In this document: in pieces, positions 3,380 through 57,601 of the stretch | How the letters are laid out: every line of letters starts with the position of its first letter | Position numbering within the stretch: the first letter of the stretch is position 1 | Source of the DNA: Phlebopus portentosus | Taxonomy: Eukaryota > Basidiomycota > Agaricomycetes > Boletales > Boletinellaceae | Assembly (NCBI GenBank): GCA_037892935.1 | Contig: JAYXKI010000017.1 | Coordinates: 124,001 to 188,000, forward strand | Direction of reading: 5' to 3' | DNA length: 64,000 bases | Position numbers and translations under genes: made by a program | The notes under the pieces: generated by a model | Databases searched by the model: none | Seen by the model: only the letters and a program-made list of their open reading frames with translations | What the model was told of the DNA's origin: nothing

Positions 3380-3690
3380 TGTGACGAAGTAACCGTCACC
3401 ATGCTTTCCTCCATAGGGTTCCGCAGCGTAACGCAGACGTTACGCGCGGAACCATATGACTAAGTATCTTACCAATAGCTTATGTGAGCGCGACCCTATG
3501 CATTTAGTTAGCTTTAGTTTTCACGTTTCCCCCATGTGTAGTTTAGTTTATATAGCTGGTAGATAGCAAATGTAAGAGGGATTCTTCCCTCTCGACTATC
3601 ACTCTAATACTACGGTTAATCCAGTCAGTAACGGTGTGATCTGAGTGCCAGAGGAATCTCTCGTGTGACCGAATCTTACCATTCGTCACA
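3380..3690 (+). repeat. Element D 5' LTR (311 bp)
   Basis: Begins TGTGACGA and ends TCGTCACA, an 8-bp perfect terminal inverted repeat. Identical to 13096-13406. Confidence 0.97.
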
Positions 3691-3884
3691 TATTTTTGAC
3701 TGTTCAACCGAACTGCTTCGTATTTGATCGCTATCTTGGTAGTCGACGTTGTCGAGGAGCCTACAGGTCTGATCAACCTACTGGTACCCGCAATAGTTGA
3801 CTTATTATCTAGAAAAACACAAAAATAGCTGAGTTTCACTGATTTTCATTTGTTCTGTGTTGTTTTTGAGTGCTCACCGTATCT

Positions 3885-12842: not shown

Positions 12843-13085
12843 GGACAAGTAACGTTAATAGTACATTGCTGCGCGAGATGTGATATGTGTGCTACTCTCC
12901 TCTATGCTGCTTATGTAAACTCTTTTTACGGAAATGATCGGCGAAGTCGATCGTTTACCCGATCGACTTGTCTTAGATATGTTTTATGCCGTCCTTATGA
13001 ATTCACACTTGGAATATAAATTCTATACATAGATTATGTTTATTCCATTATGCTACTTTACTATAAGAACTTGTAGACAAGTTCT

Positions 13086-13095
13086 GGAGGGCGTA
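13086..13095 (+). other. Element D polypurine tract
   Basis: GGAGGG followed by CGTA directly before the right LTR, on the coding strand. This is the usual place and base make-up for the plus-strand primer. Confidence 0.6.
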
Positions 13096-13406
13096 TGTGA
13101 CGAAGTAACCGTCACCATGCTTTCCTCCATAGGGTTCCGCAGCGTAACGCAGACGTTACGCGCGGAACCATATGACTAAGTATCTTACCAATAGCTTATG
13201 TGAGCGCGACCCTATGCATTTAGTTAGCTTTAGTTTTCACGTTTCCCCCATGTGTAGTTTAGTTTATATAGCTGGTAGATAGCAAATGTAAGAGGGATTC
13301 TTCCCTCTCGACTATCACTCTAATACTACGGTTAATCCAGTCAGTAACGGTGTGATCTGAGTGCCAGAGGAATCTCTCGTGTGACCGAATCTTACCATTC
13401 GTCACA
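13096..13406 (+). repeat. Element D 3' LTR (311 bp)
   Basis: Same sequence and length as 3380-3690, followed by the second GAGCG target copy at 13407-13411. Confidence 0.97.
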
Positions 13407-26955: not shown

Positions 26956-27881
26956 CATTAGGACTAGCGTTTTCAGACAAGATGGTCAGTCCAAGCATAC
27001 CAGAACAAGTCCCTGCTCTCCTTCTAACAATGTATAATTGGAGAGTAGAGTAGCAAAGGTTAGATGTACTACTAAGAAGCAAGCTATAGGCTCAAGCTTG
27101 ACCCAGCAGTAGAGCAGAGGTTCAATCAAGGGGTACAGTTATAATTAAGAGTACAAAATAATTTTGCTGAGGGACAACACCCCACTAAGCTGGTGCCTTA
27201 AATAAACTTTCTACTGAGTACTACTGACTACCAAATACTATTGACTATGTCTCGCCATTGGTCAGGACAACATGTTTTAGCAGGTGTCACTACCACTGCC
27301 TATCACCTGTGTTGCTACCAAGTCCTAGCACCCAGTGTCACCACCGCTCCTAGGGACTGGTAGTACTACTAGTTACTTCCTTTTATATTAGGCTGGCCTC
27401 TATCTACCTCTGTTACTCCAAAGCTTCTTCTGCACTTCTTCTGATCACTATTTATATCACATGTTAATCCTATCTGCTAATCCTCCCATGAGAGACTTCT
27501 TCTATGTGCCAAGATCTTGCTTCTCTGGCACTCCATTTCCTCAGCTAAGCTTCTGCTGCTAATCTTCTATCATGGGGCTAACTGTGATCTTAGAGTTTGG
27601 GATCAGCAATCCCTGCCAATCTTCTGAGGTTAATCTCAGCAGCTGTGTAAACTTGGTAGATACCCTTCTGTGCCTTGCTGCTATACTAATGTTAGAGTAC
27701 TGTAGTCTGGTGCCCATCGTTAACCTGAACCGTTGTCCTAGGTAATTTATCTCACGCTATTCATCTACTGTGATAACCCCTTCTTCTGATCATTTCCATG
27801 CTTCTAGCATTCGTTCTATTGCTTCTTCTGTAAGACTTTCAACATCTAATAGCAACCTGTAATATACTGGCCAATTGACTT
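26956..27881 (-). repeat. Decayed partial LTR of family B
   Basis: Aligns with 40136-41062 (B 3' LTR): both share GCGTTTTCAGAC near the end, CAAGTCCCTGCT, TTAAATAAA.TTTCTACT, GAGAGACTTCTTC.ATGTGCC, and end at GGCCAATTGACTTCC. The copy is changed mainly by C/T and G/A differences, and CpG is nearly absent. It stops at 27881 while the intact LTR goes on for about 670 bp more, so it is truncated. Confidence 0.75.
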
Positions 27882-28214
27882 CCTGAAAGGATCTGCTCAA
27901 AAACTCACATCAAGATTGACATGATCAGCAGATCAACAGGATCAGCATTTCAAATGCGACTAGTAATAGTCTAGCAGTCACTAGAGCCAAACTACTGTTA
28001 ATGCGACTAAGACAATGGTCACAGGCATCAACGGCAATATACGGGCACCTAAGAAGCATGCTACAAGTACGTAACCTCGCGGACTACTTAACACTGCCGA
28101 CCAGTATTTACTACTGCCAACTGTCACCTTAATGCCACTGACCAAACTCCCAATCCGACCTGATCAAAAGAAGTCAAGAAGCGATCAAAACACCTAGAAG
28201 CCCGAGAAGTCTAG
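27882..28214. other. No gene seen
   Basis: About 330 bp of short frames and no match to any other part of the window. Confidence 0.5.
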
Positions 28215-32718: not shown

Positions 32719-35011
32719 ATGTTCACTTCTGAAGAAATTGTCACGCTCTTGGGACCCATCAACTCCAATAACGACTGGAAGGCAGCGGTCGCAAAATTTG
32801 AGGCAGACGTCACCTTGGCCAGGTCAGCAATAGATAAACTAGACCATGGCATCACGACAGTAATTCTGCTGGAAAAGACGAAACCAGTCGAATGGATCGC
32901 GCCTACAGATTTGATGATGGTATGGTGGTTGACGAATCCAGTGATAGAATCTTTGATAAATGGGTGGAAGGCAACCATGGTGCATAAACCGTGCACTCTA
33001 ATCAAGAATTTTATTAACGAAATTTGACAGGCATGGAAGGAAGCATTAGAGCAAGTCCATCCCAAAGGAACAAAAGAAGTCTGGTTGGAGATGGTGTACT
33101 CCAACTACTGCGACATGGATGCTCTCCTACAGACACTGTACTATGATCGACAGGAATTTTACGCTAAGATAGAGACCAAATGATGAGCTTTCTTCCACAG
33201 ACACAGGGCTCCATTCCAACCTGCCTCATTTGATTTGACTCGTGGCTTCTTCTTGGGTGAATTTTTCCCTCCAATGTTCCCGAAACTGTGCCCTAACATC
33301 GAAAAGGCTCTCGAGAATGTGAGAATGGAGAGCTCCAAGTTCTAATGCACAGCAAGGTTCACCGGCAACACAGATTACACACAAGACGAAGCTGTCCAGA
33401 GTTACATAGGTACTTCTTCTTGTCTATCAACTCCATCTAATCCTTCCTACAGCAAGCATTTGAATATTGGGAGGATATCGACAATGACACCTTTGTGTAG
33501 GGCACATCCTTCACATTGACAAGGTGAAATTGAGAACGGTCTAGCTCCTCTGGGAATACTACGGCTATTCCATCCTTTGTCATCAGCTCTATCAACTCGT
33601 TCGTGCTCAGGAATCTGAAACGCAACATCAACAACAGCAACAACAACGATCACAACAAGTGCTGTCTGAACCTTCTTAACCTCTCTCTCAACTGCAACAA
33701 CAACAGCAGCAATAACCAATGCTGCCTGAACAATTTCCTCCGCAACAACAACAACAGCAGCAATATTAAATGCTGCCTCAGGACATCGATAGTCTAATGG
33801 AGGTTGATTCCGCTCCTCTTCATGTCGAAACTGGCAAAACAATTGAGGACAGAGAAGTCGCGGAACTGGTCAAAATGCTCAAAACCGGAGCAGAACATTT
33901 GGAAGGGGCTAGCCGTTCTACACCCTTAACCTCACTTGAACCCACAATGCTCAAGATTGAGCTTCGCAAGAGTGAAAGACATGAAGAAGAGGAATGCGCT
34001 GCTCAACACGCCAAAATCTCCCAGATGGCTGCCAAAATCAAGGCCAACATGCGATGACGATTAGATGCAGGGACTCGCTGCATTTGTGGTAGTCGGCAAG
34101 TGGTGGTCTCAGATGAGGAGACACCTGCGATTTAGGAAAGTCCTGAAAGTCCTCCTCCTGGTCATCGGGGAGAAGACTCCATTATCATGAGTCCAGGCGA
34201 CAGCGGAATGGATATCAGTGATGTGGGAATGGAGGCAAATGAGCCATTTGAGGTGGACGCAAGCCTTGAAGAGATTCAGGCTCTCAATACCGCAAGCAAC
34301 AACAACAACAGCAACAACAACAACAATAGCGGTACTGCTGCTGTTCTGCATGAAACTGTCAAAATGTAAGCGAGATGTGTTTCTCTAGCATGATGAGCAT
34401 CTTCTCAACCTGAGGCTGGTCCTTCTAGGATTCCAGCTAATGGTGGTGGTTCTGGTGATGACGACAACGATAATGATGACAATGACGATAATGATGATGG
34501 CGACAAACGATTGAGTGATAGGCGCATTCATCATTGGGTTCTATGTGACCAGTGCCAGAAGCATGGCCGTGATTGCGTGGGTCTTCTACAGAGGACCTGC
34601 GCTCTATGCTTGAAGCAGGTGAAGGGCTGTAGTCTAGCCACAAAGGGCAGGGCTGTAGCTGCAAAGTGTAAGGCAGCTCGGGAGGTGCACGATCAGAAAG
34701 CAAAATGCTAGAAACTCACAGCTCTGGTGGCCAGATTGGTGGGTGGTCGCATCGAGCATGAAGTTCTGCAGTGGGAGGTCAGAGAATCTGAGCTGCAGTT
34801 CATGCTGGTGTGGATGGATCACTGGGACAAGGTCTTGTCCCACATGCTGAACAAATTCAGTGTCCTCATTGCACAGGTGCATGCAGATCATCGTCTGCTG
34901 CTCGAGTTGGCTGGCGTGAAGATGGGGGAAGGTGAAGACAAGGAAGAGGAAGATAGAGGGGAAGTGGAGAGGGTTCGTCAGTCGAAGGGAAAAGGTAGAG
35001 CTCGGAAATAG
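32719..35011 (+). pseudogene. Element A1 opposite-strand Zn(II)2Cys6 gene, decayed
   Basis: Starts MFTSEEIVTLLGPINSNNDW, as in A2, and stays open to 33027, beyond the point where A2 has a stop. Later pieces match A2 throughout: EALEQVHPKGTKEV, the CAA-rich tract near 33630-33770, the AAC tract near 34300, the GAT/GAC acidic tract near 34460, and the zinc cluster at 34544-34630. All six cysteines of the cluster are kept (CDQC, RDC, RTCALC, KGC) although the frame has stops before and after it. Confidence 0.8.
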
Positions 35012-38940: not shown

Positions 38941-40135
38941 ATTCCGGTGGCCACTTTGCTTTGCTTTCTGCGATCGTTCGGGTCCATTAAGGTGATATGT
39001 TGGTCACCTGATGTGTAATCCTTCGTTTCGCACTCTGTAATAGTGAAAAATGGTCTCCCCAGCAAAGCCTGGAAGGGAGCATTCAGAATGACTTGCACTT
39101 GGAGCGAAATGTCAATCTCAGCTATCGTGAACTTTGCGTTAGAGATCATGCCAATGGTAGATGACCTAGCTGCATCTGCTATCTCGAGGATCATTTCTTT
39201 GTCAGGGGATAGGGGTATCTGAAGCTTCTCCCATACATCTTTGCAGAGCAGACACACTACAGCTCCCTGGTCAAGCACACATTCGACTTCCAGGGTGTCT
39301 TCAATCAACATGCTAATAGTCCTGAGAGGCATAGATGCCTCTGTGGCAATGCCTTGTCCACTGAGTGCCAGTATTTCATCTGTCGAAAGTGTTTTGCCTG
39401 TTTCAACTTGTTCCGACATGAAACGCCCAACTTGTAATGTAAGTGAATCATCCATGACCTCACCATATTTGACTTCTGCCATATTGTATCTCTTCGCCAT
39501 TGTCAACTCCTTCATCTGTTTTCTAACATCTGGGGCGATTGAAAGGAGTTCACATTGACTGATGGTGATAGGGGTATCGAGGGTACGAGTCAGAACGTTG
39601 GAGACTGTGCTCGAGTCTTCTATTGGTACGACGTATTTATACTGGGGTTGTGATTTCTTGGTAATGTTGTCCTGCTGCGGTGACTGAAGTGACCTTGTCG
39701 AGGGCTGCATGCCACTCGGTGGCACGGGCTGCAGTTTTGCCTACGCCTTCTTATAAGGCTGAACTCTAGGGACCTCTATGCTATTGGGCTTCGTTCTTTG
39801 TCCACCAGCTGCCTTCTTCTTTGCCTTGTTAATCAAAATCTCCAAACATTCAATGTCATAGTTTTCCTGCTCGTCCTGATCTACTTCGTCATGACTATAT
39901 GCGTACGCTGGACCAGCTTGATGACTGTATGTGGGCGTGACCGACTCAACCATTCCTACTGTGTATGTCGCCAGGGCTTTAGCATGAAAGCTATTGATTC
40001 GTTCTTTGAGATTGTTCCCCGGTAGTGACCTTGTAATGAGACCACCGTTCGGCAACACAATCCTTCCATCTGGGCTCCTAATGCACTTTCCGGCTTGGAT
40101 GTACTCGAGAACCTTCATACACGATCAAATATAGT
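38937..40135 (-). pseudogene. Element A1 gag C-terminus and protease, truncated by element B
   Basis: Two open pieces (40118-39741 and 39725-38937) match residues of the A2 gag-protease frame, from KVLEYIQAGKC to KQSKVATGI. The upstream part, including the CCHC knuckle, is cut off where the B LTR starts at 40136. Protease site DQG is as in A2. Confidence 0.85.
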
Positions 40136-41732
40136 TGTTAGGACCGGCGTTTTCAGACGAGGTGGTCAGTCTGAGCATACCAGAACAAGTCCCTGCTTCC
40201 TCCTTCTGACAATGAATGATTGGAGAGTAGAGTAGCGAAGGTTAGATGTACTACTTAAGAAGCGAGCTATAGGCTCAAGCTTAACTTAGTAGTAGAGCAG
40301 AGGTTCAATCAAAGGGGTACAGTTATGATTGAAGGTACAAACTAATTTTGCTAAGGGACAACACTCCGCTCAGCTGGCGCCTTAAATAAAGTTTCTACTA
40401 AATACTACCAACTACCAACTACTACCGACCATGCCTTGCCATTGGTTGGGACAATATGTTTCAGCTGGTGTCACCACCACTTTCTTGAGTCGGTGGTACC
40501 ACTGACAACTCTGGTGGCACTGCCGAAACTCCTGGTAGCACCACCAACTACTTCCTTCCCTATTAGGCAGGCCTTAATCTACCTCCGTTCCAAAGAAGCT
40601 TTCCCCAGGCTTCTATCGATCTCTGTTCCTATCACATGTTAATCCTTAGTGCTAATCCTCCCACGAGAGACTTCTTCCATGTGCCGCGATCTTGCTTTGC
40701 CGGTGCTCCGTTACTCCGGCCGAGCTTCTGCCGTTAGTCTTCCATCATGGGGCTGACCATTATCTCGGGATTTGAAATCGGCAACCCCTGCTGATCATCG
40801 GAGACTAACCTTGGTGGCTGTGTAAATCTGGCAGATACCCTTCTGTGCCTTGCCGCTATATCGATGTCGGAGAATTGTAGTCCAGTACCCGACGTTAACC
40901 TGAATCTTCTTCCCAGGTGATTCGTCTCGCACCATTCGTCGACTGTAATAACCCCTTCTTCCGATTGTTCCCATGCTTCTAGCATGCGGTCTGTTGCTTC
41001 TTCGATAAGACTTTCGATGTCCGATGGTGCTCTGTAATAGATTGGCCAATTGACTTCCACTGCAGTGTTTTGACACAAGGTCTGGTGACGATGCTGATTG
41101 ATCCAAGCTCTCACGCCGACCTTCAGTGCATAGATATCTCTATTGCCGAGCCATATGGACACTTCGTGATTGTATGCGCTCATTCCGCGGTTCAGTAATG
41201 GTTGGTCAAATGTTCGTTCCGAGGGTCTGGGCTTATGCCGAATCTTGACATCGGCTCCCTCCCTGGTTACTAAGCGCTCTACAAAGTTCTTGAGGAGCCA
41301 CTCCAAAAGAACCCAACTCCTTTGGTATGCCAAATAGCAGTTTGTACAAACCAGGCTTTCGTGAACAAAGCGTCTGGTTGCACTATGTCAATATCGTCTC
41401 TTCTGCAGGAGTTCTACGTATCTCGCAATGTTCCATTCCTCCATCTGCACGTAGCTTCGCTCAGGTGGAGGAGTATGTCCAATGTGCATTTCAGCTAGTC
41501 CTCTCTGCAAATTGTATGGGTCCTCCCTCTCATCGCATTTGTCTTCGTAATATCGTCAATCGGGTTCCTCTTGTGCAGCTACCTCCTCAGGTCCTTGCTG
41601 CATTAGTGGGCGAGAATCGCCTCCACTATTCTGTCCTTGAAGCCTTTTGAAATGCTCTTGATTAGGCTGCATGATTCAGTGTGTAAAGTGTCTGATTCCA
41701 CGCCGCATTGTATATCCACAATTTTTGTAACA
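40136..41732 (-). repeat. Element B 3' LTR (about 1,597 bp)
   Basis: Plus-strand ends TGTTAGGACC and TTTTTGTAACA, i.e. TGTTAC...CCTAACA on the sense strand. Positions 40136-40934 match 63202-64000 closely. The distal end is set by the polypurine tract at 41733 and cannot be checked against the other LTR, which runs off the window. Confidence 0.85.
40734..41333 (-). CDS. Open frame inside the B LTR, unknown product
   Basis: A 199-codon frame without a stop, on the sense strand of B and lying wholly in its LTR. It starts from a TTG at 41333, so the true start is unknown. The sequence is not recognised: KIRHKPRPSERTF, DIESLIEEATDRMLEAWEQ, TVDEWCETNHLGRRFRL. The last about 66 codons are present with few changes in the other LTR (63991-63800) and in decayed form near 27600. 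Whether it is translated is unknown. Confidence 0.4.
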   Translation of the reverse strand: MAYQRSWVLLEWLLKNFVERLVTREGADVKIRHKPRPSERTFDQPLLNRGMSAYNHEVSIWLGNRDIYALKVGVRAWINQHRHQTLCQNTAVEVNWPIYYRAPSDIESLIEEATDRMLEAWEQSEEGVITVDEWCETNHLGRRFRLTSGTGLQFSDIDIAARHRRVSARFTQPPRLVSDDQQGLPISNPEIMVSPMMED

Positions 41733-42140: not shown

Positions 42141-43544
42141 CTAAGCCTCGCTGTACTCACTATCCGAGGAGTCAGCCCAAAACCAATCCTTGTACGAAGG
42201 ATTCCCTTTCTCGTCCGGCAGATCCCATCTGTGAACCGGCAGCGCTCTGTTTCGAGTGAATGGTCTTTTTGCAGCTCTCCAATGACGCTTGTGCCATTCT
42301 GGATAACCGAAATCTCGCTGCTTGATACCTGTCTTGCTCTGGTATCTCCTTCTCTTGATTACCCTCTGAGCTACAGACTCTCCTAGTGCCGTCCTCAGGA
42401 ACTCGTCATCTTCTTTCTTGATGTCGATTACTCTCTGCGTAGAGTCTATAATATCTGCAATCTTCTTTCTAGAGGGAAGATCTATCGTGTCTGGCCAACG
42501 ATTCCTCTTGTGATACTCCCGCAATTTCTCTGGGGCATTGTGCAGCCCTTCCACAGGTTCCCAGGTATTTTCTTCCTCCAGGTAGCCGAGCCATTTAACC
42601 TGATACTCCCATCTTCCGTGCTGTTTCCTCATGTCCCAGATCACTTCAACCTCATACTCGGTTTCTCTAGCAATTACTTCTGGTGGTGGTCTTGTTCTCT
42701 GTGCCAGATCTTTCCTTTCTCGATAGGAAATTAATAGTCCTGCATAGAACACCGGGTGGATCCTCAACTCCTTTGGGAGATCTAACTCGTAGTTGACTAG
42801 CCCATGCTTTGCGATAATTTGATAAGGTCCCAGGTTTCTATCCCCTAGCTTCCTCGTGGGAACTAGCAAGGTTAGATTCCGACCATCTAACATAACTTTA
42901 TTGCCAACTTCGAATGATGGCATCAGGCCTCGGTGTCTATCTGTAAATCTCTTCATCGCATCTCGTGCCTTCTCCAGCGCTTTCGTTGCTTCTTCCTGAT
43001 TCTTCTTTCGCATAGCCACATAGTCCTGTGTTCCTCGGATTGGAAGCTTGAATCCTAATTCCGGCTGAAATCCATACACCAATTCAAATGGTGTCTTGCC
43101 TGTACTAGAGTGAGAGCGACTATTATAGGCAAATTCTGCCATAGGCAGATGTTTGTCCCAATCATCTTGCTGCAAGCTGGAATAGCAACATAACAACTGT
43201 TCCATTTCTTGATTTACTCACTCCATTTGACCATCTATTTGTGGATGATACGCCGTACTAAGCTTCGTCTCGATCCCGAGGGCCTGGTTCACCTGTTCTG
43301 TAAACCGGCTAGCGAATTGAGGTCCCCTGTCGCTGATCACTGTCTTTGGAGTCCCAACCTTGCTGTAGACATAATTGATCATTAAGTCCGCAGTGGTCTT
43401 CGAGTTTGCGTTTACTGTAGTAGGTATAAAAGTCCCCATTTTAGAGAACCTGTCTACCACCACTAGTATCGCATTATTTCCTTTGCTCGTTGTTGGAAGT
43501 CCGGTGACATAGTCCATAGTAATCTCGTCGTAGGGCCTTGTCGC
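42141..43544 (-). pseudogene. Element B integrase C-terminal half and chromodomain
   Basis: Continues the integrase cut by A2. Core residues: MDYVTGLPTTSKGN (first catalytic Asp), VISDRGPQFAS (second), and GQME at the third. There the frame has a TGA at 43215-43217 in place of a sense codon (probably CGA). The rest (43205-42141) has the GPY/F-like region, DLPKELRIHPVFYAGLL, and a chromodomain: YEVEVIWDMRKQHG to WLGYLEEENTWEPVEGL. Chromodomains guide integration to marked chromatin. The protein ends DSSDSEYSEA. Confidence 0.9.
43541..43544. other. Target site duplication of A2, left copy (TCGC)
   Basis: TCGC precedes the left LTR; TTGC follows the right LTR at 55606-55609. The single difference is a CpG-to-TpG change. 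Removing A2 and one copy rejoins the B integrase frame exactly. Confidence 0.75.
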
Positions 43545-45172
43545 TGAAACTCCTGTGGACGTTCTGATGCCAGACAGGGAGTGTATAGTTCGAGGGGCTG
43601 CCCTAGAATACCTTCAAACGGTCAGCAGAGAATTACACCCGAGCTAAGGGCACGAAGGAGTGGAGGGAAATAGGGATAGACAATGGAAGGGCTTGGTGAG
43701 AACCGGGGATATGAGGGAAGCGCTCGAGGAGGAATTCCGAGGGTAGGCTTCTCCCGAGATCGACGGTGGCGGTGCAAAGGCTAAATCGACTCTCCGGCTC
43801 AGCTGCGAGCTCTGGACTAAAGCCGACTAACCCAAGGCACAAGAACTAAACTAACTAAGCTACGCTAGTCGAACCACCAACCCGAACGTGACTAATCGAC
43901 TGTGCTAACACACTGGCAAGCGACTGCAGCCAATCTCACCCGTAGTCTAAAGTGTCGGAACGCGGCGTAATGATTCGAAACACGATACGATGGACGAAGG
44001 ACAATTGCTGAGTGAGTCGAAATGTGATGTGAGGGATGGAGGTGTGAAACGATGATGGAAGGGGACTGAGAGAATCTAAGGATATGTGTGGGACGATGAA
44101 ACTGACCGTTTCCGATCGAAACGATGCGGAATAGCACCGGGCTGGTCTTGAGGAAGCGGAGAGTGGAAAGTCAAGAGGAAAGGGGTGATATGGTGTCCTT
44201 TCCTGATGACAATGGAGAGGAGAAGGTGTTGCGAGACCAAATGCGAGCGGCACGCAGAGTAACTGGGTTACGAGCGAAACCGGGCGAAACAGATCGAAAC
44301 ACATGAGGGGGTCTTGTTTCGGGTGAGAGGAGATAGAGAAGCCTTTATACGATGACGGCGAACTATACGAACGCACGAACGGCTCTACTGCGAAGAGAGA
44401 TCACCGATCGACTGTACAGAACACGAAATGTCGTATATTAGACTATAGAGACAAGAGAGTCCACTACGAACAAGTAGACTAGAGGTCGAGAGGCTTAGAG
44501 ACGATGTGAGAACTGCAAGCTAAGCTCCCACTAAGCTCCGACTAAGCTGTCCCTCTACTACGAGAGTCGTGCTATATTTATACTAAACGTCCAAGACTGA
44601 GCCTCCCAGCGGTCAGAGAACCTACGTCATAAAGAAAAGGGAACGCATATCGCTATCTACAAAGGAGAGGAGCACATAGGAATGGTTTAAGAGACACATA
44701 GGTCAAAAGAAACAATACTAAGCATGTCTGGAACGAGAGCATAATGGATTAAAGGGGACGCATATAGAAAGGTCAGAATATGAGCGGAACCTTCGGAACC
44801 GGGTCTCTTTGAGCGGAACGAAGCAGAACTCGGGAAAATGACTCGGAAGGGCTCTGGCTAGCCTGACAAAGTAAGTCTGCGATGTTTAACAAAGGAGAGG
44901 GACTGAGGACGAGGTTGCAGGGTCAAATCTCTTTGTCTGGAATGCAGATCCAAGGTCCGGAGACTTGTGATCGACGCGTGCAAACTCAATGCCGTGATTC
45001 TCCCGTCTTGATGGCCGATCAAAGAACGGTGCACGTGCCATCTGGACTATGGCGTTCTTGCTAAGTTTACTCATTCGAGCGAAACCAGTCGAAACCGAGC
45101 GAAACCAGTTGGAACACCGCGGAACTGGTCGTAATGACTCCGTACGTTCCCAAGCTTCAGACTTACTCTTCA
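43545..45172 (-). repeat. Element A2 3' LTR (1,628 bp)
   Basis: Plus-strand TGAAACTCCTGTGGA to CTTACTCTTCA; same length as 53978-55605. It contains many CGAAAC/CGGAAC hexamers. Confidence 0.95.
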
Positions 45173-45191: not shown

Positions 45192-45211
45192 AGTGACCGT
45201 CCGCGGTCACT
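45192..45211. promoter_or_regulatory. Palindrome with everted CCG-N4-CGG upstream of the opposite-strand gene
   Basis: Arms AGTGACCG (45192-45199) and CGGTCACT (45204-45211) are perfect inverted copies around TCCG. Everted CCG/CGG triplets are a standard layout for Zn(II)2Cys6 dimers. It lies about 90 bp before the ATG at 45301, with a pyrimidine-rich stretch (TCTCTTCTTCATTCTCC) in between, as in fungal promoters. Binding by the element's own protein is inference. Confidence 0.6.
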
Positions 45212-45300: not shown

Positions 45301-47595
45301 ATGTTCACTTCCGAAGAAATTGTCGCGCTCTTGGGACCCATCAACTCCGATGACGACTGGAAGGCAGCGGTCGCGAAATTCAAGGCAGACGTCACCTTGG
45401 CCAGGTTGGGAATGGATGAACTAGACCATGGCATCACGACGGTAATTCTGCCGGATAAGACAAAACCGGTCAAATGGATCGCGCCTACAGGTTCGATGAC
45501 GGTTCGGTAGTTGACGAATCCGGTGATGGAATCTTTGATGGATGGGTGGAAGGCAACCACGGTGCGTAAACCGCGCACTCTAATCAAGAATTTTTGTTAA
45601 CGAAATTCGACAGGCACGGAAGGAAGCGTTGGAGCAAGTCCGTCCCAAAGGAACGAAAGAAGTCTGGTCGGAGACGGCGTACTCCAACTACTGCGACACG
45701 GACGCTCTCCTACGGACGCTGTACTACAATTGACGGGAATTTTATGCCAGGATGGAGACCAAACGACAAGCTTTCTTCTGCAGACGCAGGGTTCCATTCC
45801 ATCCAGCCTCGTTCGATTCGACTCGTGGGTTCTTCTTGGGCGATTCGTTCCCTCCAATGTTCCCGAAACCACGCCCTGACATCGAAAAGGCTCTCGAGAA
45901 CGTGAGAATGGAGAGCTCCAAGTTCCAACAAACGGCAAGGTTCACCGGCAACACGGACTACACGTGAGACGAAGCTGTCCGGAGTCACGTAGGTACTTCT
46001 TCTTGTCTATCATCTCCATCTAATCCTTCCTACAGCAAGCGTTCGAATACTGGGAGGATATCGAGCAATGACACCTTCGTGCAGGGCACATCCTTCGCAT
46101 CGACAGGGTGAAATTGAGAACGGTCCGGCTCCTCTAGGAATACTACGGCTATTCCATCCTTTGTCGTCGGCTCTGTCAACTCGTCCATGCTCAGGAATCC
46201 GAAATGCAACAACAACAACAGCAACAACAACGATCCCAACAAGTGCTGTCTGAACCTTCTCAACCTCTTCCTCAACCGCAACAACAACAGCAGCAACAAC
46301 CAATGTTGCCTGAACAATTTCCTCCGCAACAACAACAACAGCAGCAACATCAAATGCTGCCTCAGGACGTTGATAGTCCAATGGAGGTTGATTCCGCTCC
46401 TCTTCAGGTCGAAACTGGCGAAACAATTGAGGACAGAGAGGTCGCGGAACCGGTCGAAACACTCGAAACCGGAGCGGAACGTTTGGAAGGGGCTAGCCGT
46501 TCTACACCCTTAACCTCACTCAAACCTACAATGCTCGAGATTGAGCTTCGCGAGAGTGAAAGACGAGAAGAAGAAGAACGTGCTGCTCAACGTGCCGAAA
46601 TCTCCCGGATGGCTGCCGAAATCAAGGCCAACATGCGACGACGGCTGGATGCAGGGACTCGCCGCGTTCGTGGTGTTCGGCAAGTGGTGGACTCGGATGA
46701 GGAGACTCCTGCGATTCAGGAAAGTCCTGAGAGTCCTCCTCCTGGTCATCGGGGAGAAGATTCCGTTATCATGAGTCCAGGCGACGGCGGAATGGATATT
46801 GGTGATGTGGGAATGGAGGCGAATGTGCCGTTTGAGGCGGACGCAAGCCTTGAAGAGATTCAGGCTCTCAATACCACGAGCAACAACAACAGCAACAACA
46901 ACAACAACAATAGCGGTACTGCTGCTGTTCCACGCGAAACAGTCGAAACGCAAGCGAGACACGTTTCTCCGGCACGACGAGCGTCTTCTCAACCTGAGGC
47001 TGGTCCTTCTAGGATTCCGGCTAATGGTGGTGGTTCTGGAGGTGACGACAACGATAATGACGACGACGACAATGACGACGATGGTGACGAACGATTGGGC
47101 GATGGGTGCGTTCGTCATCGGGTTCCGTGCGACCAGTGCCAGAAGCGTGGCCGTGATTGCGTGGGTCTTCCGCAGAGGACCTGCGCTCCATGCTTGAAGC
47201 AGGCGAAGGGCTGTAGTCTAGCCACAAAGGGCAGGGCTGTAGCCGCAAAGCGTAAGGCAGCTCGGGAGGCGTGTGATCGGGAAGCAAAACGCTGGAAAGT
47301 CACGGCTCTGGCGGCCAGATCGGTGGGTGGTCGCGTCGAGCATGAAGCTCTGCAGCGGGAGGTCGGGGAATCTGAGCTGCAGTTCGTGCTGGCGCGGATG
47401 GATCACCGGGACAAGGTCCTGTCCCGGATGCTGAATGAATTCAGCGTCCTCGTAGCGCAGGCGCACGCAGATCGTCGTCTGCTGCTCAAGTTGGCTGGGG
47501 TGAAGACGGGGGAAGGTGAAGACGAGGAAGAGGAAGATAGAGGGGAAGTGGAGAGGGTTCGTCAGTCGAAGGGGAAAGGTAGGGCTCGGGAATAG
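45301..47595 (+). pseudogene. Element A2 opposite-strand gene: Zn(II)2Cys6 zinc-cluster protein with polyQ and acidic tracts
   Basis: Lies on the strand opposite to gag-pol, between the integrase end and the 3' LTR. It starts MFTSEEIVALLGPINSDDDW. The N-terminal third (to about 46200) is read in pieces, with a TAG at 45508, a one-base insertion near 45590 and later stops. It includes PFHPASFDSTRGFFLGDSFPPMFPK and probably one small intron (about 45989-46034). From 46204 a 463-codon frame is intact: polyQ, QVVDSDEETPAIQESPESPPP, an asparagine tract, an acidic D/N tract, then the cluster CDQC-X6-C-X7-CAPC-X6-C at 47128-47214 (residues 309-337 of that frame), basic residues, a helical stretch and an acidic KGKGRARE end. 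Zinc clusters bind DNA at CGG triplets. The N-terminal part is of unknown function. Confidence 0.8.
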
Positions 47596-48054: not shown

Positions 48055-51000
48055 TTAGGACTCATCGTCAGGGAATTTCTCTGGCGAATCTTCTATTTCG
48101 GGTATGTCATCATCTTCGTCCGATCCAATGAGCTTGGTCACCGGAACAGTTAAATGCAAACGCGGGAAGTACGGAACCAGGCGAAACGCTGCTATTTGGA
48201 GTTTCGAAACTGCTCTATTGAGTTCGGCGACGATATACGAACCGCCTTAGGTGCGTTGAACTACCACGTAGGGGCCTAAATAGCGGGGTTTCGTTTTACG
48301 ATTGAGTTCCATCTTGATACGCGTGTTTCGCAAGAGTACGAGGCTTTCTGGCTGAAAGTCGTAGTCCTTGATTCTATGCTTCTCCACCTCGGCGAACTGC
48401 TTCGCGTATGCATGCCTTGCATTCATGACGAGTTTCGCAACGCGATCCAACTCTTCTGGACATTTCTGGAGTTGTTTCGCACGTATTACGATGAGTTCTG
48501 ACGTTGTAATTGGCGAATTGAGCGGCGGTGCTAGGTATGTTGCTTCTGCGAGGTCGAAAGGCAAAACTGCTTCGACTCCATGGGCCATGTAATACGGGGA
48601 CATTCCTATCACTCTGTTGATCATGATTCTTTCTGCCCAAAATACCGAGTCAGCATGATCACTCCAACACTTGTCATTACCATCTACAGCTTTAATCAAG
48701 GCTTCCTGTACGTTGAAATGTCTGCGTTCGACTAATCCATTTGCGCGTGAGTTGTATGACGAAATCCGAATGTGGTTGATGTGATACCGTGTCTTCAAGT
48801 AATCTAGCGCGGCGACGAATGGTGTGCCGTTATCTGTAACGATTTCGGGGCATGCTCCATATCGACACAAAAGGTTCTGAAAGATAAACTGGCCTACGGT
48901 CTTACCAGTTTCTTCTTGAAGAAGTCTAAATTTGGGATACGCGGTTAACGAACAACGCACATGCACGATATACCGGAATCCACTCGATTTCAGCATAACC
49001 TTCGAGTTAATATAGATGCATTGAAACAGAGGGGCTACCTCTGGTACGTTCGGTGGGATAAGAATATTCTTCGTCTGGCGTATCTGGCACTCATGACAGG
49101 TGCGCACAAAATACTTCACGTCCTGTCCTAAGGACGGCCACCAAAATCTCTCCAGCAGTCGCATTCGAGTGCAGAAAATTCCTTTGTGTCCTAGATCGTC
49201 GTGAGCTTGCTTGACTAGGTCCCACCTGCGTTTTGCTTCTATTACGACTTGGTGCCGGCCGTTCCGCGCCTTTCTCCACAGACGGCCTCCCTTCACAAAG
49301 AAGTCAGCTGCGTACCTGATTAGCTTCACATAGCCACTATCGCTAAGATTGTCTGGGCATGTGAGATGCGTGATTAGCTTCGTGACGTCATCTAAGCGGC
49401 TATCCTTCCTTCTCGCGGATTCCGTAGAAGGAAACAGGTTTCCGGTCGCTGTTTCGCTAGGTGTTCCGCTCTGTTGCGCTACTTGGTATGTCGAAACCGG
49501 CTCTTCTATCGCAAATCCGTACGTTTCGTCTACCCAGTCTTCGTACGTTTCATCAGGAGGGGGGTCTTCTTCGGCTGCTCTTCGTCTGGATAATCCATCG
49601 GTACATCGGAAATCGGCTGCTGGGATGTGTCTGAGCTTGAAACTGAAGAGAAGGATACCTGCGATCCATCTGTTAATGGTCACATTGGGCTGCAGGTCGG
49701 GATTGTTGATCATCCCCTTGATGTATGCTGCGTCCATTTCGACTACTAGATTCCGGACTCCGATGAGATACAGTCGCATCGCGTGCAATGCTCGAAATAA
49801 GCCGTATAACTCGATTTTCAGCTGTGAATACGATGCCTGGGTCTGATTCCAGTTAATAGAACCGAAACGATTGATCCTTCGCCTTCCATCCGAGTGCTCT
49901 TGTCCTAAATACCAACCAACTCCAATAATAGATGAGTCTACCACCAATATTACTTCGTTATCCGATGCGTAGTCGATTGCGCACAGCGCGGGGCAAAGAA
50001 TAACGGCTTGCTTTAGTTTGTCCATTGCGTTCTGTTCTTTGTCTGTCTACGCGAAAATCTGGTTCTTCCTTGTCATGCGGTACAACGGGCGAGCGAGTTT
50101 CGAATAATCCCTGACAAAAATTCGAAGGACTCCTACCGTTCCCAGAAATCCTCTGACTTCTGTCAGCGTTCTACATGGCGGCCAATCTCGTATCTTCTGT
50201 ACTTTCGAATCGTCTGGCTCGCGTCCCTGGTACGTCAACTTGTGTCCAACGAATACGGCTGACTCCACACACGGAACCAACTTCTTCCCTGAAAACGTTC
50301 CTCCTATGGCCTTCATTCGCTGCAAAATCCTGTTCACATCGCATATATGCTCATACACGAAATGACGAATCTCGGAGTTTCCCGGTATTGTCTCGTACGA
50401 ACCATCTGGTAGCTCGTATCGCGATTTCGGACCTAAACCGGGCGCATCGTCTGCGAAAGGGTTCGTAACATGCGGAATCTCGTCCTAAAGGATAAAGGCC
50501 ACGTCGTTATGCATAATCTGCAAGGAATTGGTGTATCCCATTGGTAGAACCGTCATTCGAAATGTTCCCAAAGGTGTCTGGAACGTAGTAAGATCTCGAG
50601 ATTGTTCGTCCAGCTTTCTTTGGTCAAATGCCACGAATAAATCCAACTCCGTGTAACAAGCTCGTCCACCACTGCTCTCCGCGATCGTTTCAACATTCGG
50701 TGGTACTGCCGAGTCCTTGACTGTAACCACATTAAGATCCTGCAAGTCGATGATGGATCGCAATGTTTCTTTGTCTTTCTTTACTAAGCAAAACCATCTG
50801 GATTGATACGACGAATTCAACGGTTCAATAACCCCATTGCGAATCTTCTCTCGAATAAGTTCGAGGGCCTTGTCATGAATTCCCGGGGGAATTGGAATGC
50901 TCTTGTGCTGCCACGGTATATGCGGTATCGTGGGGATGCGTATCGGGTCGAAATACGTCGGATCGAGTGTTCCACGTTCGGATTCGGTCCATGCTAATGC

Positions 51001-51494
51001 TTCTTCCTGCAACATAATTAGATTCTTCACTAATAACCTCTCCGCCGGCCACAGAAAGGTATTCTCGTCGATCTTCAGTGCTTCCATCCTTTCGGCGGTT
51101 ACACGACCCGTGGGTTCGAACGGCTTCGGTACAACTGGCATCTCGGGCATCCCTCTCAACGGATCCGGATGCTGCCTTCGAACAATCCTGTACTCTTCTG
51201 GAAGGACTCCTGGGATCGGCCTGACTTTCTGCGCTACTCGTTTGTAAGCCATTACTGCCACGTCTTCTTCTTCTGGGGTTTCTAAAACACATGAACAATA
51301 TGACCATTCTTCTTTGTCAGTAGTATAGCAATTTTTGTTTAATAAATAAGGCAATCGTTGGTTGAAAAGAGATGGGATCATGTGTGAGATAAATTCGAAA
51401 TCATAAGAAAATACCTGAACCGGCAATTGGTTACTACCATTCTCGTCTCGCCGATTTCTCTCAATCAGTTCCTCGACGCTTGCAGAAAACCCTT
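48055..51494 (-). pseudogene. Element A2 RT/RNase H/integrase
   Basis: Entered by -1 frameshift from gag-protease at 51486-51492. RT has LDLFVAFDQRKL, TTFQTPLGTFRMTVLPMGYTNS and the catalytic FADD (50457-50446), an F-X-D-D form that I know from other Agaricomycete gypsy lineages. RNase H has VVDSSIIGVGWYLG. Integrase has a HHCC finger (HDDLGHKG, CHECQIRQ) and VTDNG/GLVERRH (D-X34-E). The frame is broken by TAG at 50485-50487 (CAG in A1) and at 50047-50049 (TGG in A1). The first catalytic Asp is Asn at 49006-49008 (Asp in A1). It ends at a TAA at 48247-48249, after which the frame stays open to 48055 with an acidic tail. Confidence 0.88.
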
Positions 51495-53777
51495 TGGAAG
51501 TGGTCCTCGTGCAATCGTTCGAATTCCGGTGGCCACTTTGCTTTGCTTTCTGCGATCATTCGGGTCTGTTAAGGTGATATGTTGGTCACCTGATGTGTAA
51601 TCCTTCATTTCGCACTCCGTAATAGCGAAAAATGGTCTCCCCAACAAAGCCTGGAAGGGAGCGTTCGGAACGACTTGTACTTGGAGCGAAACGTCAATTC
51701 CGGCTATCGTGAACTTCGCGTTTGAGATCATGCCAATGGTAGATGACCTAGCTGCATCTGCTGTCTCGAGGATCATCCCTTTGTCAGGGGATAGGGGTAT
51801 CTGAAGCTTCTCCCATACGTCTTCGTGGAGCAGACACACTACTGCTCCCTGGTCAAGCACGCATTCGACTTCCAGAGTGTCTTCAATCAATGCGCTAATG
51901 GTCCTGAGAGGCATGGATGCCTCTGCGGTGACGCCTTGTCCACTGAGCGCCAGTATTTCTTCCGTCGAAAGCGTTTCGCTTGTTTCGACTTGTTCCGACG
52001 TGAAACGCCCAACTTGTAACGTAAGTGAATCATCCACGACCTCACCATATTTGACTTCTGCCACGTTGTATCTCTTCACCGTCGTCAACTCCTTCATCTG
52101 TTTCCTAACGTCTGGGGCGATCGAAAGGAGTTCACGTTGACTGATGGTGATAGGGGTATCAAGGGTACGAGTCAGAACATTGGAGACTGCGCTCGAGTCT
52201 TCTATTGGTACGACGTATTTATACTGGGGTTGTGATTTCCTGGTAATGTCGTCCTGCTGCGGTGACTGGAGTGACCTTGTCGAGGGCCGTGCGCCACTCG
52301 GTGGCGCGGGCTGCGGTTTCGCCTGCGCCTTCTTATGAGGCTGAACTCTAGGGATCTCTACACCATCGGGCTTTGTTCTTCGTCCACCAGCTGCCTTCTT
52401 CTTCGCCTCGTTAATCAAAATCTCCAAACGTTCGATGTCGTAGTTTTCCTGCTCGTCCTGATCTTCTTCGTCGTGACTATACGCGTACGCTGGACCAGCT
52501 TGATGGCTATATGCAGGTGTGACCGACTCGACCATCCCTACTGTGTGTGTCGCTGGGGCTTTAGCATGAAAGCTATCGATTCGTTCTTTGAGATTGTTCC
52601 CCGGTAGTGACCTCGTAATGGGACCGCCGTTCGGCAACACAATCCTTCCATCCTGGCTCCTAACGCACTTTCCGGCTTGGATGTACTCGAGAACCTTTGT
52701 ACACGATCGAATATAGTGTCCTGCTTCGCCGCAGAAGTTGCAAACTGGGTTTCGCGGAGTTTCGCTGCGTTCCGCCCCTGGTCGATGCGGAATGTTCCCT
52801 TTGCTCAGGGCGTCGAGCGTAACCTGAAAACTCTTCAATGTATCCATTACCTTGGCCAAATCCACTTCTTCCTTCTTCACGATACTTGTCAAAGCTTCTC
52901 CGGTAGCTGGGGGTGGAAAGTTACTGCCGAAACTGCCCACAATCTTTCCTCCCAGCATGAAATTTGAATGTTCGAGCACGTCCTTAATCTTGTAAGGCGT
53001 AGACGAATCGTGGTCTGGTAGCTTGATCTCGATACGACGAATGAGCGCCTCTCTAAGGTCTCCTGTAATTCCCATCAGGAACATCTCGTCAGCTTGGGAC
53101 TCCAAGATCTTTCCGTTCGTTATAAGATACTTAGAGCGCCTGACGAATTCTCGATGATATTTGCCTAGGTCTTCTCGGTTCTTGATCCCTTTCTTCGCCC
53201 GTTCTACGACCAAATGCTCCAGTTCTCCCTTGGAGTAGCATTTCCCTGCCGTGAGACTCGGGTATAGAGCTATAATCTCTCTCTTCACCGTCTCCACATC
53301 AGGGTTCGGTTCGTTAATCTCGTCGGTAGTCTCCCAAAGTTCCGCGACGTCGGTCTTCGCATAGTACAAGAACTTTCGGACGTGATCTCTATCGTTCCAC
53401 GCGGCCTGTCTTGCGATTTCTGCAACGTCTTCGAAGAACCTAGGGAGTTCCTTTGGTTCTGAGCCGTCAAACGTTGGGGCACGTTTGTCCCCATGCGAGG
53501 GCGGTTGGTACGCTATTGCGGTTTGTCGATTTGTAAGTTGTTGTAATACGTTAGCGTTAGCAGACAGACGAGCTATTATCGCTGCGTTGCTGGCTAAGAT
53601 CTGTTGAGTTCCGGTAGGTAGTTGGTAATTGGTAGGTGGGCTAGCTGGTCTGTTCGGTGAGCCTGGGGTGGAAGCTGGCACGGATGAGAGGTTGGGGAGT
53701 TCTGAATCGGCGATGGTAGATGGGAAATGATCTAGAGAATCGGTGTTGGAAGGAATGGTGCTAACGGATTGTCGCAA
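51465..53777 (-). CDS. Element A2 gag-protease polyprotein
   Basis: 770-codon open frame. It is open upstream of 53777 without an ATG (the codon there is TTG), so the true start or an upstream exon is unresolved. The gag domain is about residues 90-260 (PTFDGSEPKELPRFFEDV). A CCHC knuckle CNFCGEAGHYIRSC is near 345-358 and a charged linker follows. The aspartic protease domain has VECVLDQGAVVCLL and ALLGRPFF near the end. The active site is DQG rather than DSG/DTG, and A1 has the same, so this is a family trait. No stop breaks the frame. Confidence 0.88.
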   Translation of the reverse strand: MRQSVSTIPSNTDSLDHFPSTIADSELPNLSSVPASTPGSPNRPASPPTNYQLPTGTQQILASNAAIIARLSANANVLQQLTNRQTAIAYQPPSHGDKRAPTFDGSEPKELPRFFEDVAEIARQAAWNDRDHVRKFLYYAKTDVAELWETTDEINEPNPDVETVKREIIALYPSLTAGKCYSKGELEHLVVERAKKGIKNREDLGKYHREFVRRSKYLITNGKILESQADEMFLMGITGDLREALIRRIEIKLPDHDSSTPYKIKDVLEHSNFMLGGKIVGSFGSNFPPPATGEALTSIVKKEEVDLAKVMDTLKSFQVTLDALSKGNIPHRPGAERSETPRNPVCNFCGEAGHYIRSCTKVLEYIQAGKCVRSQDGRIVLPNGGPITRSLPGNNLKERIDSFHAKAPATHTVGMVESVTPAYSHQAGPAYAYSHDEEDQDEQENYDIERLEILINEAKKKAAGGRRTKPDGVEIPRVQPHKKAQAKPQPAPPSGARPSTRSLQSPQQDDITRKSQPQYKYVVPIEDSSAVSNVLTRTLDTPITISQRELLSIAPDVRKQMKELTTVKRYNVAEVKYGEVVDDSLTLQVGRFTSEQVETSETLSTEEILALSGQGVTAEASMPLRTISALIEDTLEVECVLDQGAVVCLLHEDVWEKLQIPLSPDKGMILETADAARSSTIGMISNAKFTIAGIDVSLQVQVVPNAPFQALLGRPFFAITECEMKDYTSGDQHITLTDPNDRRKQSKVATGIRTIARGPLPKGFLQASRN
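51486..51492 (-). promoter_or_regulatory. -1 ribosomal frameshift heptamer G GGT TTT
   Basis: In the gag-protease frame the codons read AAG GGT TTT CTG, so GGGTTTT fits X-XXY-YYZ exactly. The gag-protease stop is six codons further on, and the RT frame is the -1 frame. The same heptamer in the same phase is in A1. Confidence 0.7.
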
Positions 53778-53957
53778 GGGTGTTTCGCAGTGTTCCGCGT
53801 TTTCCGCAGCGGAACGTATGTTGCGATTGACAATCCTAGGCCTTCAAGTCGGCGGCAAAACCTGATGTTCTATAGGGACTCGAGCGGATTGGCTACGTGT
53901 AACTCGTCTGCTAGACGAATTTGGCGGGGTATTCGTAATGGTTGGACAGTGAAATCC

Positions 53958-53977: not shown

Positions 53978-55605
53978 TGAAACTCCTGTGGACATTCTGA
54001 TGCCGGACAGGGAGTGTATAGTTCGAGGGGCTGCCCTAGAATACCTTCAAACGGTCAGCAGAGAATTACACCCGAGCTAAGGGCACAAAGGAGTGGAGGG
54101 AAATAGGGACAGACAATGGAAGGGCTTGGTGAGAACCGGGGATATGAGGAAAGCGCTCGAGGAGGAATTCCAAGGGTAGGCTTCTCCCGAGATCGACGGT
54201 GGCAGTGCAAAGGCTAAATCGACTCTCTGGCTCAGCTGCAAGCTCTGGACTAAAGCCGACTAACCCAAGGCACAAGAACTAAACTAACTAAGCTACGCTA
54301 GTCGAACCACCAACCTGAACGTGACTAATCGACTGTGCTAACACACTGGCAAGCGACTGCAGCCAATCTCACCCGTAGTTTAAAGTGTCGGAACGCGGCG
54401 TAACGATTCGAAATGTGATACGATGGACGAAGGACAATTGCTGAGTGAGTCGAAATGTGATGCGAGGGATGGAGGTGCGAAACGATGACGGAAGGGGACT
54501 GAGAGAATCTAAGGATATGTGTGGGACGATGAAACCGACCGTTTCCAATCGAAACGATGCGGAATAGCACCGGGCTGGTCTTGAGGAAGCGGAGAGTGGA
54601 AAGTCAAGAGGAAAGGGGTGATATGGTGTCCTTTCCCGATGACAATGGAGAGGAGAAGGTGTTGCGAGACCAAATGCGAGCGGCACGCAGAGTAACTGGG
54701 TTATGAGCGAAACCGGGCGAAACAGATCGAAACACGTGAGGGGGTCTTGTTTCGGGTGAGAGGAGATAGAGAAGCCTTTATACGATAACGGCGAACTATA
54801 CGAACGCACGAACGGCTCTACTGCGAAGAGAGATCACCGATCGACTGTACAGAACACGAAATGTCATATATTAGACTATAGAGACAAGAGAGTCCACTAC
54901 GAACAAGTAGACTAGAGGTCGAGAGGCTTAGAGACGATGTGAGAACTGCAAGCTAAGCTCCCACTAAGCTCCGACTAAGCTGTCCCTCTACTACGAGAGT
55001 CGTGCTATATTTATACTAAACGTCCAAGACTGAGCCTCCCAGCGGTCAGAGAACCTACGTCATAAAGAAAAGGGAACGCATATCGCTATCTACAAAGGAG
55101 AGGAGCGCATAGGAATGGTTTAAGGGACACATAGGTCAAAAGAAACAATACTAAGCATGTCTGGAACGAGAGCATAATGGATTAAAGGGGACGCATATAG
55201 AAAGGTCAGAATATGTGCGGAACCTTCGGAACCAGGTCTCTTTGAGCAGAACGAAGCGGAACTCGGGGAAACGACTCGGAAGGGCTCTGGATAGCCTGAC
55301 AAAGTAAGTCTGCGATGTTTAACAAAGGAGAGGGACTGAGGACGAGGTTGCAGGGTCAAATCTCTTTGTCTGGAATGCGGATCCGAGGTCCGGAGACTTG
55401 TGATCGATGCATGCAAACTCGATGCCGTGATTCTCCCGTCTTGATGGCCGATCAAAGAACGGTGCACGTGCCATCTGGACTATGGCATTCTTGCTAAGTT
55501 CACTCGTTCGAGCGAAACCAGTCGAAACCGAGTGAAACCAGTTGGAACACCGCGGAACTGGTCGTAACGACTCCGTACGTTCCCAAGCTTCAGACTTACT
55601 CTTCA
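53978..55605 (-). repeat. Element A2 5' LTR (1,628 bp)
   Basis: Plus-strand TGAAACTCCTGTGGA to TTACTCTTCA; pairs with 43545-45172. Confidence 0.95.
55005..55015 (-). promoter_or_regulatory. TATA-like box in the A2 5' LTR
   Basis: TATAAATATAG on the sense strand, conserved in the other A2 LTR (44572-44582) and in A1 (near 31990). A second TATAAAG lies about 230 bp downstream, near 54780. Either could drive gag-pol transcription. Confidence 0.5.
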
Positions 55606-57601
55606 TTGCTATCTGCAATGGCTGCAGCGGTGGTTGCGTCTTTCCTCGTCGTGCTTTCGTCCTCTGGCACACGTCGCATGTGCGCACATATTCTTCGACC
55701 CATTCCCTCATCTTTGGCCACCAAACTCTTCTTTCCAGTTTGTCTATAGTTTTCTGTAACCCCGGGTGTCCTGACGCCGGTGCGTCATGGCACTGTCATA
55801 CAATTTCCTTTTTAACTTCTTCATCTGGTGGGATAACCAATTTATCATCTTTCCACCAATATCCTTCTTCGAATGTTCCAATTGCTGGCTCTTTGGATCG
55901 TTCATAGGCGTCTCGAATCTTCTCTCCCAGTTCTGGACCCCCTGTAAGCTCAAATACCCATACTGTGCACATGGGCAGGTCCGATGTTCTGAACAATTGC
56001 GGAGGAAGTAGGACTTGTTCTGGCTGGTCCTCTTGGCCCTGCTCGTAGTCTGGCCTTCTTGATAATGCGTCCACTCGTGAATTCTTGGTTCCAGGTCAAT
56101 ACTCAATTCGAAATCAAAATCTGCTGATAAATGTCACCCATCTTGCTTGGCGACCACTTAGCTTCCTAGCTCCCATGAAATATTGAAGGTTAGCTTGATC
56201 GCTAACCACTCGAATCTCATGTTTAGCTCCTTCCAAGTGGTGCCTCCAGTTGCTCAAGGCCTTGACAATCGCTAGTAATTCTTTGTCTATTACTGGATAG
56301 TTATTCTCAGCATCTCGATAGGTGTTCGACCAATATCCAATGGGGTGCAAAATTTCATCGTCCCTGAGCTGCGAGAGCACGGCTCCCATCGCAAAGTTTG
56401 ACGCGTCAGTTTCCAGTACAAATTGCTTCTCGTGATCTGGTCGTACTAGCATTGGTGCAGTGGTAAAAGCTTCCTTGAGTTTCCTAAAGCTCTCCTGTTG
56501 TCGTTCTTCCCAGGTAAATGTCTTCTTGCCAGACATAAGTTCCGTTAATGGCCTAGCGATTTTGGTGAAGCCTTCGATAAATTTTTGGTAAAAGTTTGCG
56601 AAACCGATAAACTTTTGAATGTCTCGCTTGCTCGATAAATCTGGCCATTCTTGAACTGCTTTTACCTTATAGGGATCCATCTGCATGCCCGACTGGTTAA
56701 CCACAAATCCTAAATAGTCGAGTTCCTTCTTTCCGAAGTAGCACTTTTCTGGTTTGCAGAAGAAGTCTGCTTCTCTTAACCTGCACAATACCTCTGCTAG
56801 CAGGTCCCAATGTTCCTGTTCCGTTTCCGCATAGACTATAATGTCATCCAGATAAATGAGTATGCCCTGCCCAATCATGTCCTGAAAGAGCTCGTTCATT
56901 GCACGTTGGAATACCGCAGGCACATTCATTAATCCAAACTGCATCACCATCGGCTGGTATACTCCCATGTGAGTCCTGAAGGTGGCATACTTCTCATGCC
57001 CAGGGTGTATTCGAATGTTATTGTACCCACTTCGCAAATCCAGCGTAGAGAACCATTTGGCATGTGCAAGATCATCCGGGAGCATATGTAATAGAGGCAT
57101 TGGCTGATGGTCTGGAATGACCACCGCATTTAGTCCTCTATAGTCGATAACAATTCTATACTCTGGCTTGCCATCCTTCCCTATTGTCTTCTTGGCTATG
57201 ACAAATACTGGTGCACAAGTGTTCACTTTTTCCTCAGCTGGTACTTGATTTCCTACAACCCGAATCCATCCCTTCTTCAGATCCTCATGAATCCATTCCT
57301 CTACCGCTCGCTTTTCAGCAGGAGCAAGTGGATATACCGGTCCAGGTTTTGGGAGCTCTGCTCCTGGTAGGAGCTCAATCTTCATGTCCCATTGTCCCGA
57401 CTTAGGCAGCCGTTTAGCAGCGTCCTTGTCAAACCTATCCCTGAACTCCCATATTTGTTTTGGAAGAATTTCTTCGAGAGATTTGTCGCCAGCAGAGTCT
57501 GCCATCCTTTCATTGAGTGCTTTCTCCTGCACATATTTTTGAGCTATGCTGTTATACTTGAGAAGGCGTTCTCTCTGCGATGCTACTTGTCAATGCTCTA
57601 G
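55606..57601 (-). pseudogene. Element B RT, RNase H and integrase N-terminus
   Basis: The open part 57532-56114 has RT motifs PEYRIVIDYRGLNAVVIPD, STLDLRSGYNNIRI, QFGLMNVPAVFQ and YLDD (56854-56843). RNase H follows: FVLETDASNFAMGAVLSQ, NYPVIDKELLAIVKAL, LSGRQARW. After stops at 56114 and nearby comes DALSRRPD, then the integrase zinc finger, VRTCDVCQRTKARRGKTQPP. The frame is then cut by A2 at 55605 and goes on at 43544. It matches the standard Ty3/gypsy pol order. Confidence 0.92.

Follow-up and report, generated by a model that had tools for sequence, protein, structure and literature searches.

The 64,000-nucleotide stretch of Phlebopus portentosus analysed here (contig JAYXKI010000017.1, positions 124,001 to 188,000; hereafter the window) contains a Ty3/gypsy retrotransposon, A2, which carries an intron-containing gene on the strand opposite to gag-pol. 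The gene lies on the plus strand, in the interval that separates the 3' long terminal repeat (LTR) from the end of the integrase (48250), and its predicted product contains six cysteines spaced as in fungal Zn(II)2Cys6 factors. We lean towards the explanation that a gypsy lineage permanently carries this antisense gene and that its product is a Zn(II)2Cys6-like regulator, which would bind element DNA and tune both its own transcription and that of the element. The position of the gene, its three exons, its presence in two diverged families, the constraint on its protein and a cluster model that may be Gal4-like argue for such a regulator.

When 31 aligned copies were considered together with annotated relatives (P0003, 731 aa, was used for the exon model), a gene of three exons and 731 codons was obtained, starting at 45301 and interrupted by two short phase-0 introns with GT-AG borders. 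Its features are as follows.

45301..45561, plus strand: exon 1 of the antisense gene, 87 codons (31-row alignment and P0003)
45562..45613, plus strand: intron 1, GT-AG, 52 nt, phase 0
45614..45988, plus strand: exon 2, 125 codons
45989..46035, plus strand: intron 2, GT-AG, 47 nt, phase 0
46036..47595, plus strand: exon 3, with polyglutamine (polyQ) and acidic tracts, the cluster and C-terminal helices
47128..47214, plus strand: six-cysteine cluster CX2CX6CX7CX2CX6C, exact spacing
47215..47493, plus strand: pair of long helices predicted C-terminal to the cluster, a possible dimer region (AlphaFold2 model residues 40-74 and 82-132, 7 sequences)
34544..34630, plus strand: corresponding cluster of A1, an older and decayed copy whose coding row has 18 stops

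The initial annotation had reported an opposite-strand coding region with polyQ and acidic tracts in both copies of this family (family A) in the window, the exact cysteine spacing in A2, and all six cysteines in A1. These observations were confirmed, and the A2 stop-to-stop frame at 46138-47595 (plus strand, 485 codons) runs opposite to the pol and gag-protease frames. The 463-aa frame with an N-terminal extension that had been proposed is real but represents only part of exon 3, and the A2 copy of the complete gene contains five in-frame stops.

The genome searched comprised 38.4 Mb in 23 contigs and yielded 96 gene matches, fragments included. The alignment rows are the 30 best-scoring loci (L009 is A2) plus A1, and counts made from them are not rates for all copies. 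The gene is open from ATG to stop in 15 of the 31 rows, and its length is divisible by three in 29. Both intron donor sites are kept in 28 rows and both acceptor sites in 30. The cysteines do not vary freely among copies: all six are present in 30 of the 31 rows, including A1, and one row has a Cys to Tyr change. Nor is the gene confined to the two copies in the window, as it lies antisense within 4 kb of 51 of 53 integrase matches of family A, in 50 cases at a distance of 633-669 bp. It therefore belongs to the antisense additional open reading frame (ORF) type, being located between pol and the 3' LTR and kept in most copies.

A sister family, C, whose integrase is 65-74 % identical to that of family A, carries the gene in the same place at 18 of 20 integrase matches. 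The family-C gene shares 26-34 % identity with the family-A query (7 matches, best E-value 1.3e-9). Both introns (64 and 54 nt) were found in all five family-C loci examined, of seven. The exons measure 246 nt, 351 nt (350 in one locus, which is frameshifted) and about 1206 nt; an open frame is kept by three of the five loci. A separate nested insertion with its own ends, which the initial annotation had named as an alternative, was rejected on the antisense position at the integrases of both families and the same exon layout in family C. Comparison of the two families gave a dS of 2.08 over the stretch running from the cluster to the C-terminus and of 2.02 over pol, with dN values of 0.77 and 0.18, respectively; both dS values are saturated, so that a single shared history of gene and pol is possible on these figures.

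Selection on the protein was analysed by comparing private variants (seen in one copy) with shared variants, which had either passed through replication or arisen twice. Twenty-seven of the 31 rows were used; L022, L026, L032 and L038 were left out because their 5' end or pol flank is rearranged. For the whole gene, omega (dN/dS) was 0.89 for private variants (confidence interval, CI, 0.67-1.17) and 0.42 for shared variants at non-CpG sites (0.24-0.66), while the pol C-terminus gave 0.96 (0.61-1.67) and 0.22 (0.08-0.43), respectively. Private variants thus look neutral and shared non-CpG variants look constrained. With CpG sites included, gene omega was 0.62 (0.43-0.86) for variants found in at least three copies. 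Relative to the window copy, 25 of the 870 amino acids compared in the cluster are mismatched; for exon 3 upstream of the cluster, a part that takes in poorly aligning low-complexity tracts, the count is 787 of 9840. A chance frame was ruled out by the amino acid constraint and by residue shuffling, in which the motif class appeared in 0 of 20,000 shuffles for each of four annotated relatives. That the gene is a stable part of the element, old and constrained, is well supported by these comparisons.

Under the spacing criterion for Zn(II)2Cys6 clusters (C-X2-C-X6-C-X5..12-C-X2-C-X6..8-C), the A2 cluster, 30 of the 31 family-A rows and family C all qualify. The predicted cluster model may resemble Gal4-type clusters, and the antisense product is likely to be a DNA-binding regulator. 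The likeness to the fungal factors GAL4, PPR1 and HAP1 consists in the cysteine spacing, the predicted helices after the cluster and, tentatively, the predicted cluster shape. In contrast to these factors, the product falls below all sequence-profile thresholds tried and is encoded by a mobile element, and family C (C-X2-C-X6-C-X7-C-X2-C-X7-C) has a last spacing of C-X7-C rather than C-X6-C. The genome contains 27 matches to Pfam Zn_clus, none of which coincides with an antisense-gene match. Nothing significant was found by sequence in the PDB, where LEU3 appeared at E 9.1 with a profile. The AlphaFold2 model of the N-terminal half had a mean predicted local distance difference test (pLDDT) score of 48.7 (4 sequences), too poor for a structure search. 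A TFIIA match of P0001 (31.1 bits against a cut-off of 36.2) was attributed to the polyQ and acidic tracts.

A candidate binding site was found between the 3' LTR and the antisense start codon, which are 128 bp apart.

45193..45210, no strand assigned: 18-bp dyad GTGACCG-TCCG-CGGTCAC (GTGACCGTCCGCGGTCAC), candidate binding site, 108 bp ahead of the antisense start codon
45173..45182, minus strand: purine-rich tract adjoining the 3' LTR, probable polypurine tract from its sequence, within the block common to family C

The dyad GTGACCGTCCGCGGTCAC was present in 29 of 30 family-A loci when up to three substitutions were allowed, and the family-C form GTGACTGTCCGCAGTCAC, or one near it, in all seven family-C loci. 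A pattern spanning both forms gave 63 exact matches in the genome, for 62 of which a gene match in the same orientation follows within 2.5 kb. Within the stretch from the LTR to the start codon, the two families are most alike in the block that contains the dyad and the purine-rich tract. Control of the element through this predicted operator is put forward as a testable proposal.

In the proposed mechanism, the antisense transcript would start in or beside the 3' LTR and would be spliced and translated. The protein would dimerise through the helices after the cluster, enter the nucleus and bind element DNA, most likely at the conserved dyad, from where it would tune its own transcription and that of the element. 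We infer from established biology that the introns survive copying through RNA because reverse transcription uses RNA complementary to the gene, in which they are not introns; the same-rank, same-phase introns of the two families fit this explanation. More tentatively, these parts may form a two-strand control circuit, in which a spliced antisense gene would yield a zinc-cluster dimer that acts on the LTR-side dyad to set how much the element is transcribed in each direction. Such a circuit would have arisen convergently with that of HBZ, and its introns would persist only through their antisense orientation.

Several results weigh against a constrained regulator of this kind. When CpG sites are included, the shared omega of the gene rises to 0.80 (CI 0.63-1.03), and eight shared variants create stops; the claim of constraint rests mainly on non-CpG sites because recurrent CpG decay blurs the signal. 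The initial annotation had proposed that the element carries a transcription factor, and a stable, constrained, Zn(II)2Cys6-like gene on the opposite strand was indeed found, but Pfam Zn_clus (PF00172) does not match its product at E-values up to 1 or 5. The Z scores of the cluster model were all below 5, a common value on the scale of that tool, and the best Foldseek E-value was 1.0. Profile comparison of the family-C cluster with host clusters gave a probability of 3.4. Homology between families A and C rests on the cluster-to-C-terminus part and the exon layout because their N-terminal halves show no detectable profile likeness (E 0.25). Regarding the dyad, both arm differences between the families are easily arising CpG transitions, so chance may account for its preserved symmetry, and polypurine-tract priming may be a partial cause of the shared block.

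Other explanations of the gene were weighed against a self-regulating protein. It is unlikely, in our view, that the antisense transcript rather than the protein matters, by pairing with genomic RNA and feeding RNA silencing or limiting copy number. Overlapping opposite transcripts would indeed pair, as has been raised for plant elements (PMC7264820), but the amino acid constraint, the frame-keeping length changes and the conserved cysteines point to a protein; a role of splicing or of the RNA may exist in addition. Action of the protein on the host, for instance as a decoy or by rewiring host regulation so that the element is silenced less, has a low probability. With its DNA-binding-like module and its acidic and polyQ tracts, the product could act at host promoters; no host target was found, none having been sought, and nothing separates such action from self-regulation. 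The idea of a recent passenger, that is, a host gene or a separate nested element hitch-hiking without function, is disfavoured and seems very improbable. The window copy and many others are broken, and searches turned up no homologue whose function is known. On the other hand, the gene has the same place and exon layout in two families with saturated synonymous divergence, is under constraint, and has no host copy among the best candidates, which were the ones scored.

An integration or nuclear-import factor, for instance one steering integration to CpG-centred targets, is likewise an alternative of low probability, although the lineage does integrate almost exclusively at CpG. Ten family-A copies were fetched; the eight with both ends readable have exact 4-bp duplications with a central CG (NCGN), and the two with a single readable end also show CG. 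Counting TCGC/TTGC of A2, CG-centred duplications were found in all nine fully readable copies. Across the genome, 135 exact LTR ends less 44 inner ones leave 91 outer ends, at 77 of which CG is in place, the other 14 being unclassified. In family C, CG was found at all five left ends listed, of seven loci. The CG dinucleotide makes up 5.1 % of the window and 6.3 % of eight host loci, so that CG would be expected at 5-6 % of the ends. Gal4-type clusters read CGG triplets, which favours this alternative as well. However, CG alone is fixed and the base after it is mixed (C 28, G 21, T 19 and A 9 at the 77 ends), unlike what a CGG reader would give, and the integrase by itself could account for the CG preference.

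The element that carries the putative regulator gene has the following features.

43545..45172, minus strand: 3' LTR of A2, TG...CA ends, 1628 bp, direct repeat of 53978-55605 with 97.3 % identity
53978..55605, minus strand: 5' LTR of A2, direct repeat of 43545-45172
43541..43544 (left, TCGC) and 55606-55609 (right, TTGC), no strand assigned: target-site duplication of A2, the copies differing by one CpG transition
51465..53843, minus strand: gag-protease frame, DUF4100 and Asp_protease_2 above the Pfam cut-off, CCHC knuckle below it
48250..51555, minus strand: pol, in two frames in the window copy (50485-51555, reverse transcriptase; 48250-50046, RNase H and integrase)

RVT_1, RT_RNaseH, RT_RNaseH_2 and Integrase_H2C2 all scored above the Pfam cut-off in pol. 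With paired TG...CA LTRs, a target duplication, the order reverse transcriptase - RNase H - integrase and a gag with protease, A2 is a Ty3/gypsy LTR retrotransposon. Assignment of a transfer RNA to its primer-binding site was dropped, as the window string matched two places, both of them element copies by position. A three-layer nest was observed in window 30960-64000 together with L070: A2 lies within a chromodomain gypsy element, B, and B within the older A1. A1 breaks off at 40135 and, with 5 bp overlapping, continues at L070:1700 outside the window, where it is also interrupted by an inverted family-A LTR. Elsewhere in the window, 26958-27883 is 78 % identical to the element B LTR at 40138-41058 and may be a solo LTR left by a relative, and 3380-13406 is a young gypsy-type element with 100 % identical 311-bp LTRs and a 2990-codon open gag-pol frame inside.

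The nearest proteins to the antisense product are those of Sanghuangporus sanghuang, S. weigelae and S. baumii (Hymenochaetales). Relatives in the protein database came from Sanghuangporus only, among candidates sharing exact words (one search scored the best 7990); since only such candidates were covered, relatives may occur more widely in Agaricomycetes. No non-element host homologue was found in the genome among the best candidates, which were the ones scored. The C-terminal end of P0005 (ACEPAF_6065) resembles the translated start of a family-C LTR (compare L040 from 127), and P0005 looks like an annotated junction of a family-C element inserted into a family-A antisense gene.

HBZ of HTLV-1 (human T-cell leukaemia virus type 1) is an antisense, spliced, DNA-binding regulator expressed from the 3' LTR side. 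The present gene shares its orientation and location and, as predicted, its splicing and DNA binding, although the proteins are unrelated. In HTLV, an antisense promoter is located in the 3' LTR (PMC7264820). Among plant gypsy elements, antisense additional ORFs are known as gene23 of Grande, in RIRE2 and as ORF4/TRP28 of Retand (PMC7264820; available text of PMC11963269). Like the present gene, they lie between pol and the 3' LTR, are kept in most copies and are suspected to encode nuclear or DNA-binding regulators (same sources). The Retand ORFs encode TRP28, for which transcriptional regulation has been proposed (available text of PMC11963269), and the function of antisense gypsy genes is given as unknown (PMC7264820; available text of PMC11963269). 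Their proteins are TRP28 or SMC-like, whereas here a six-cysteine cluster occurs in a mushroom host; two introns are present here, and the word intron is absent from the main text of PMC11963269 on Retand, as far as available.

The initial annotation had known of no such description in fungi. An antisense gene is in fact known in a fungal gypsy element, brtn in Boty of Botrytis, Ascomycota (PMC7264820; reference list of PMC8365987; also treated in the available text of PMC5987419), but no spliced zinc-cluster antisense gene in an LTR element was found in the literature covered, which included few subscription papers and lacked the BRTN sequence. The Boty integrase has a chromodomain (available text of PMC4227169), whereas A2 has no chromodomain match; brtn was compared by description, and the two genes may share the cluster. 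What appears to be new here is the intron-containing zinc-cluster antisense gene; antisense genes in this position were already known from Grande, Retand and Boty. The gene encodes a recognisable DNA-binding-like module, has conserved introns and a nearby candidate site, and occurs in many open copies as well as in a diverged sister family, so that the function of an antisense gypsy gene becomes directly testable. If the explanation is true, it would show how an element that copies itself through RNA can retain introns for long.
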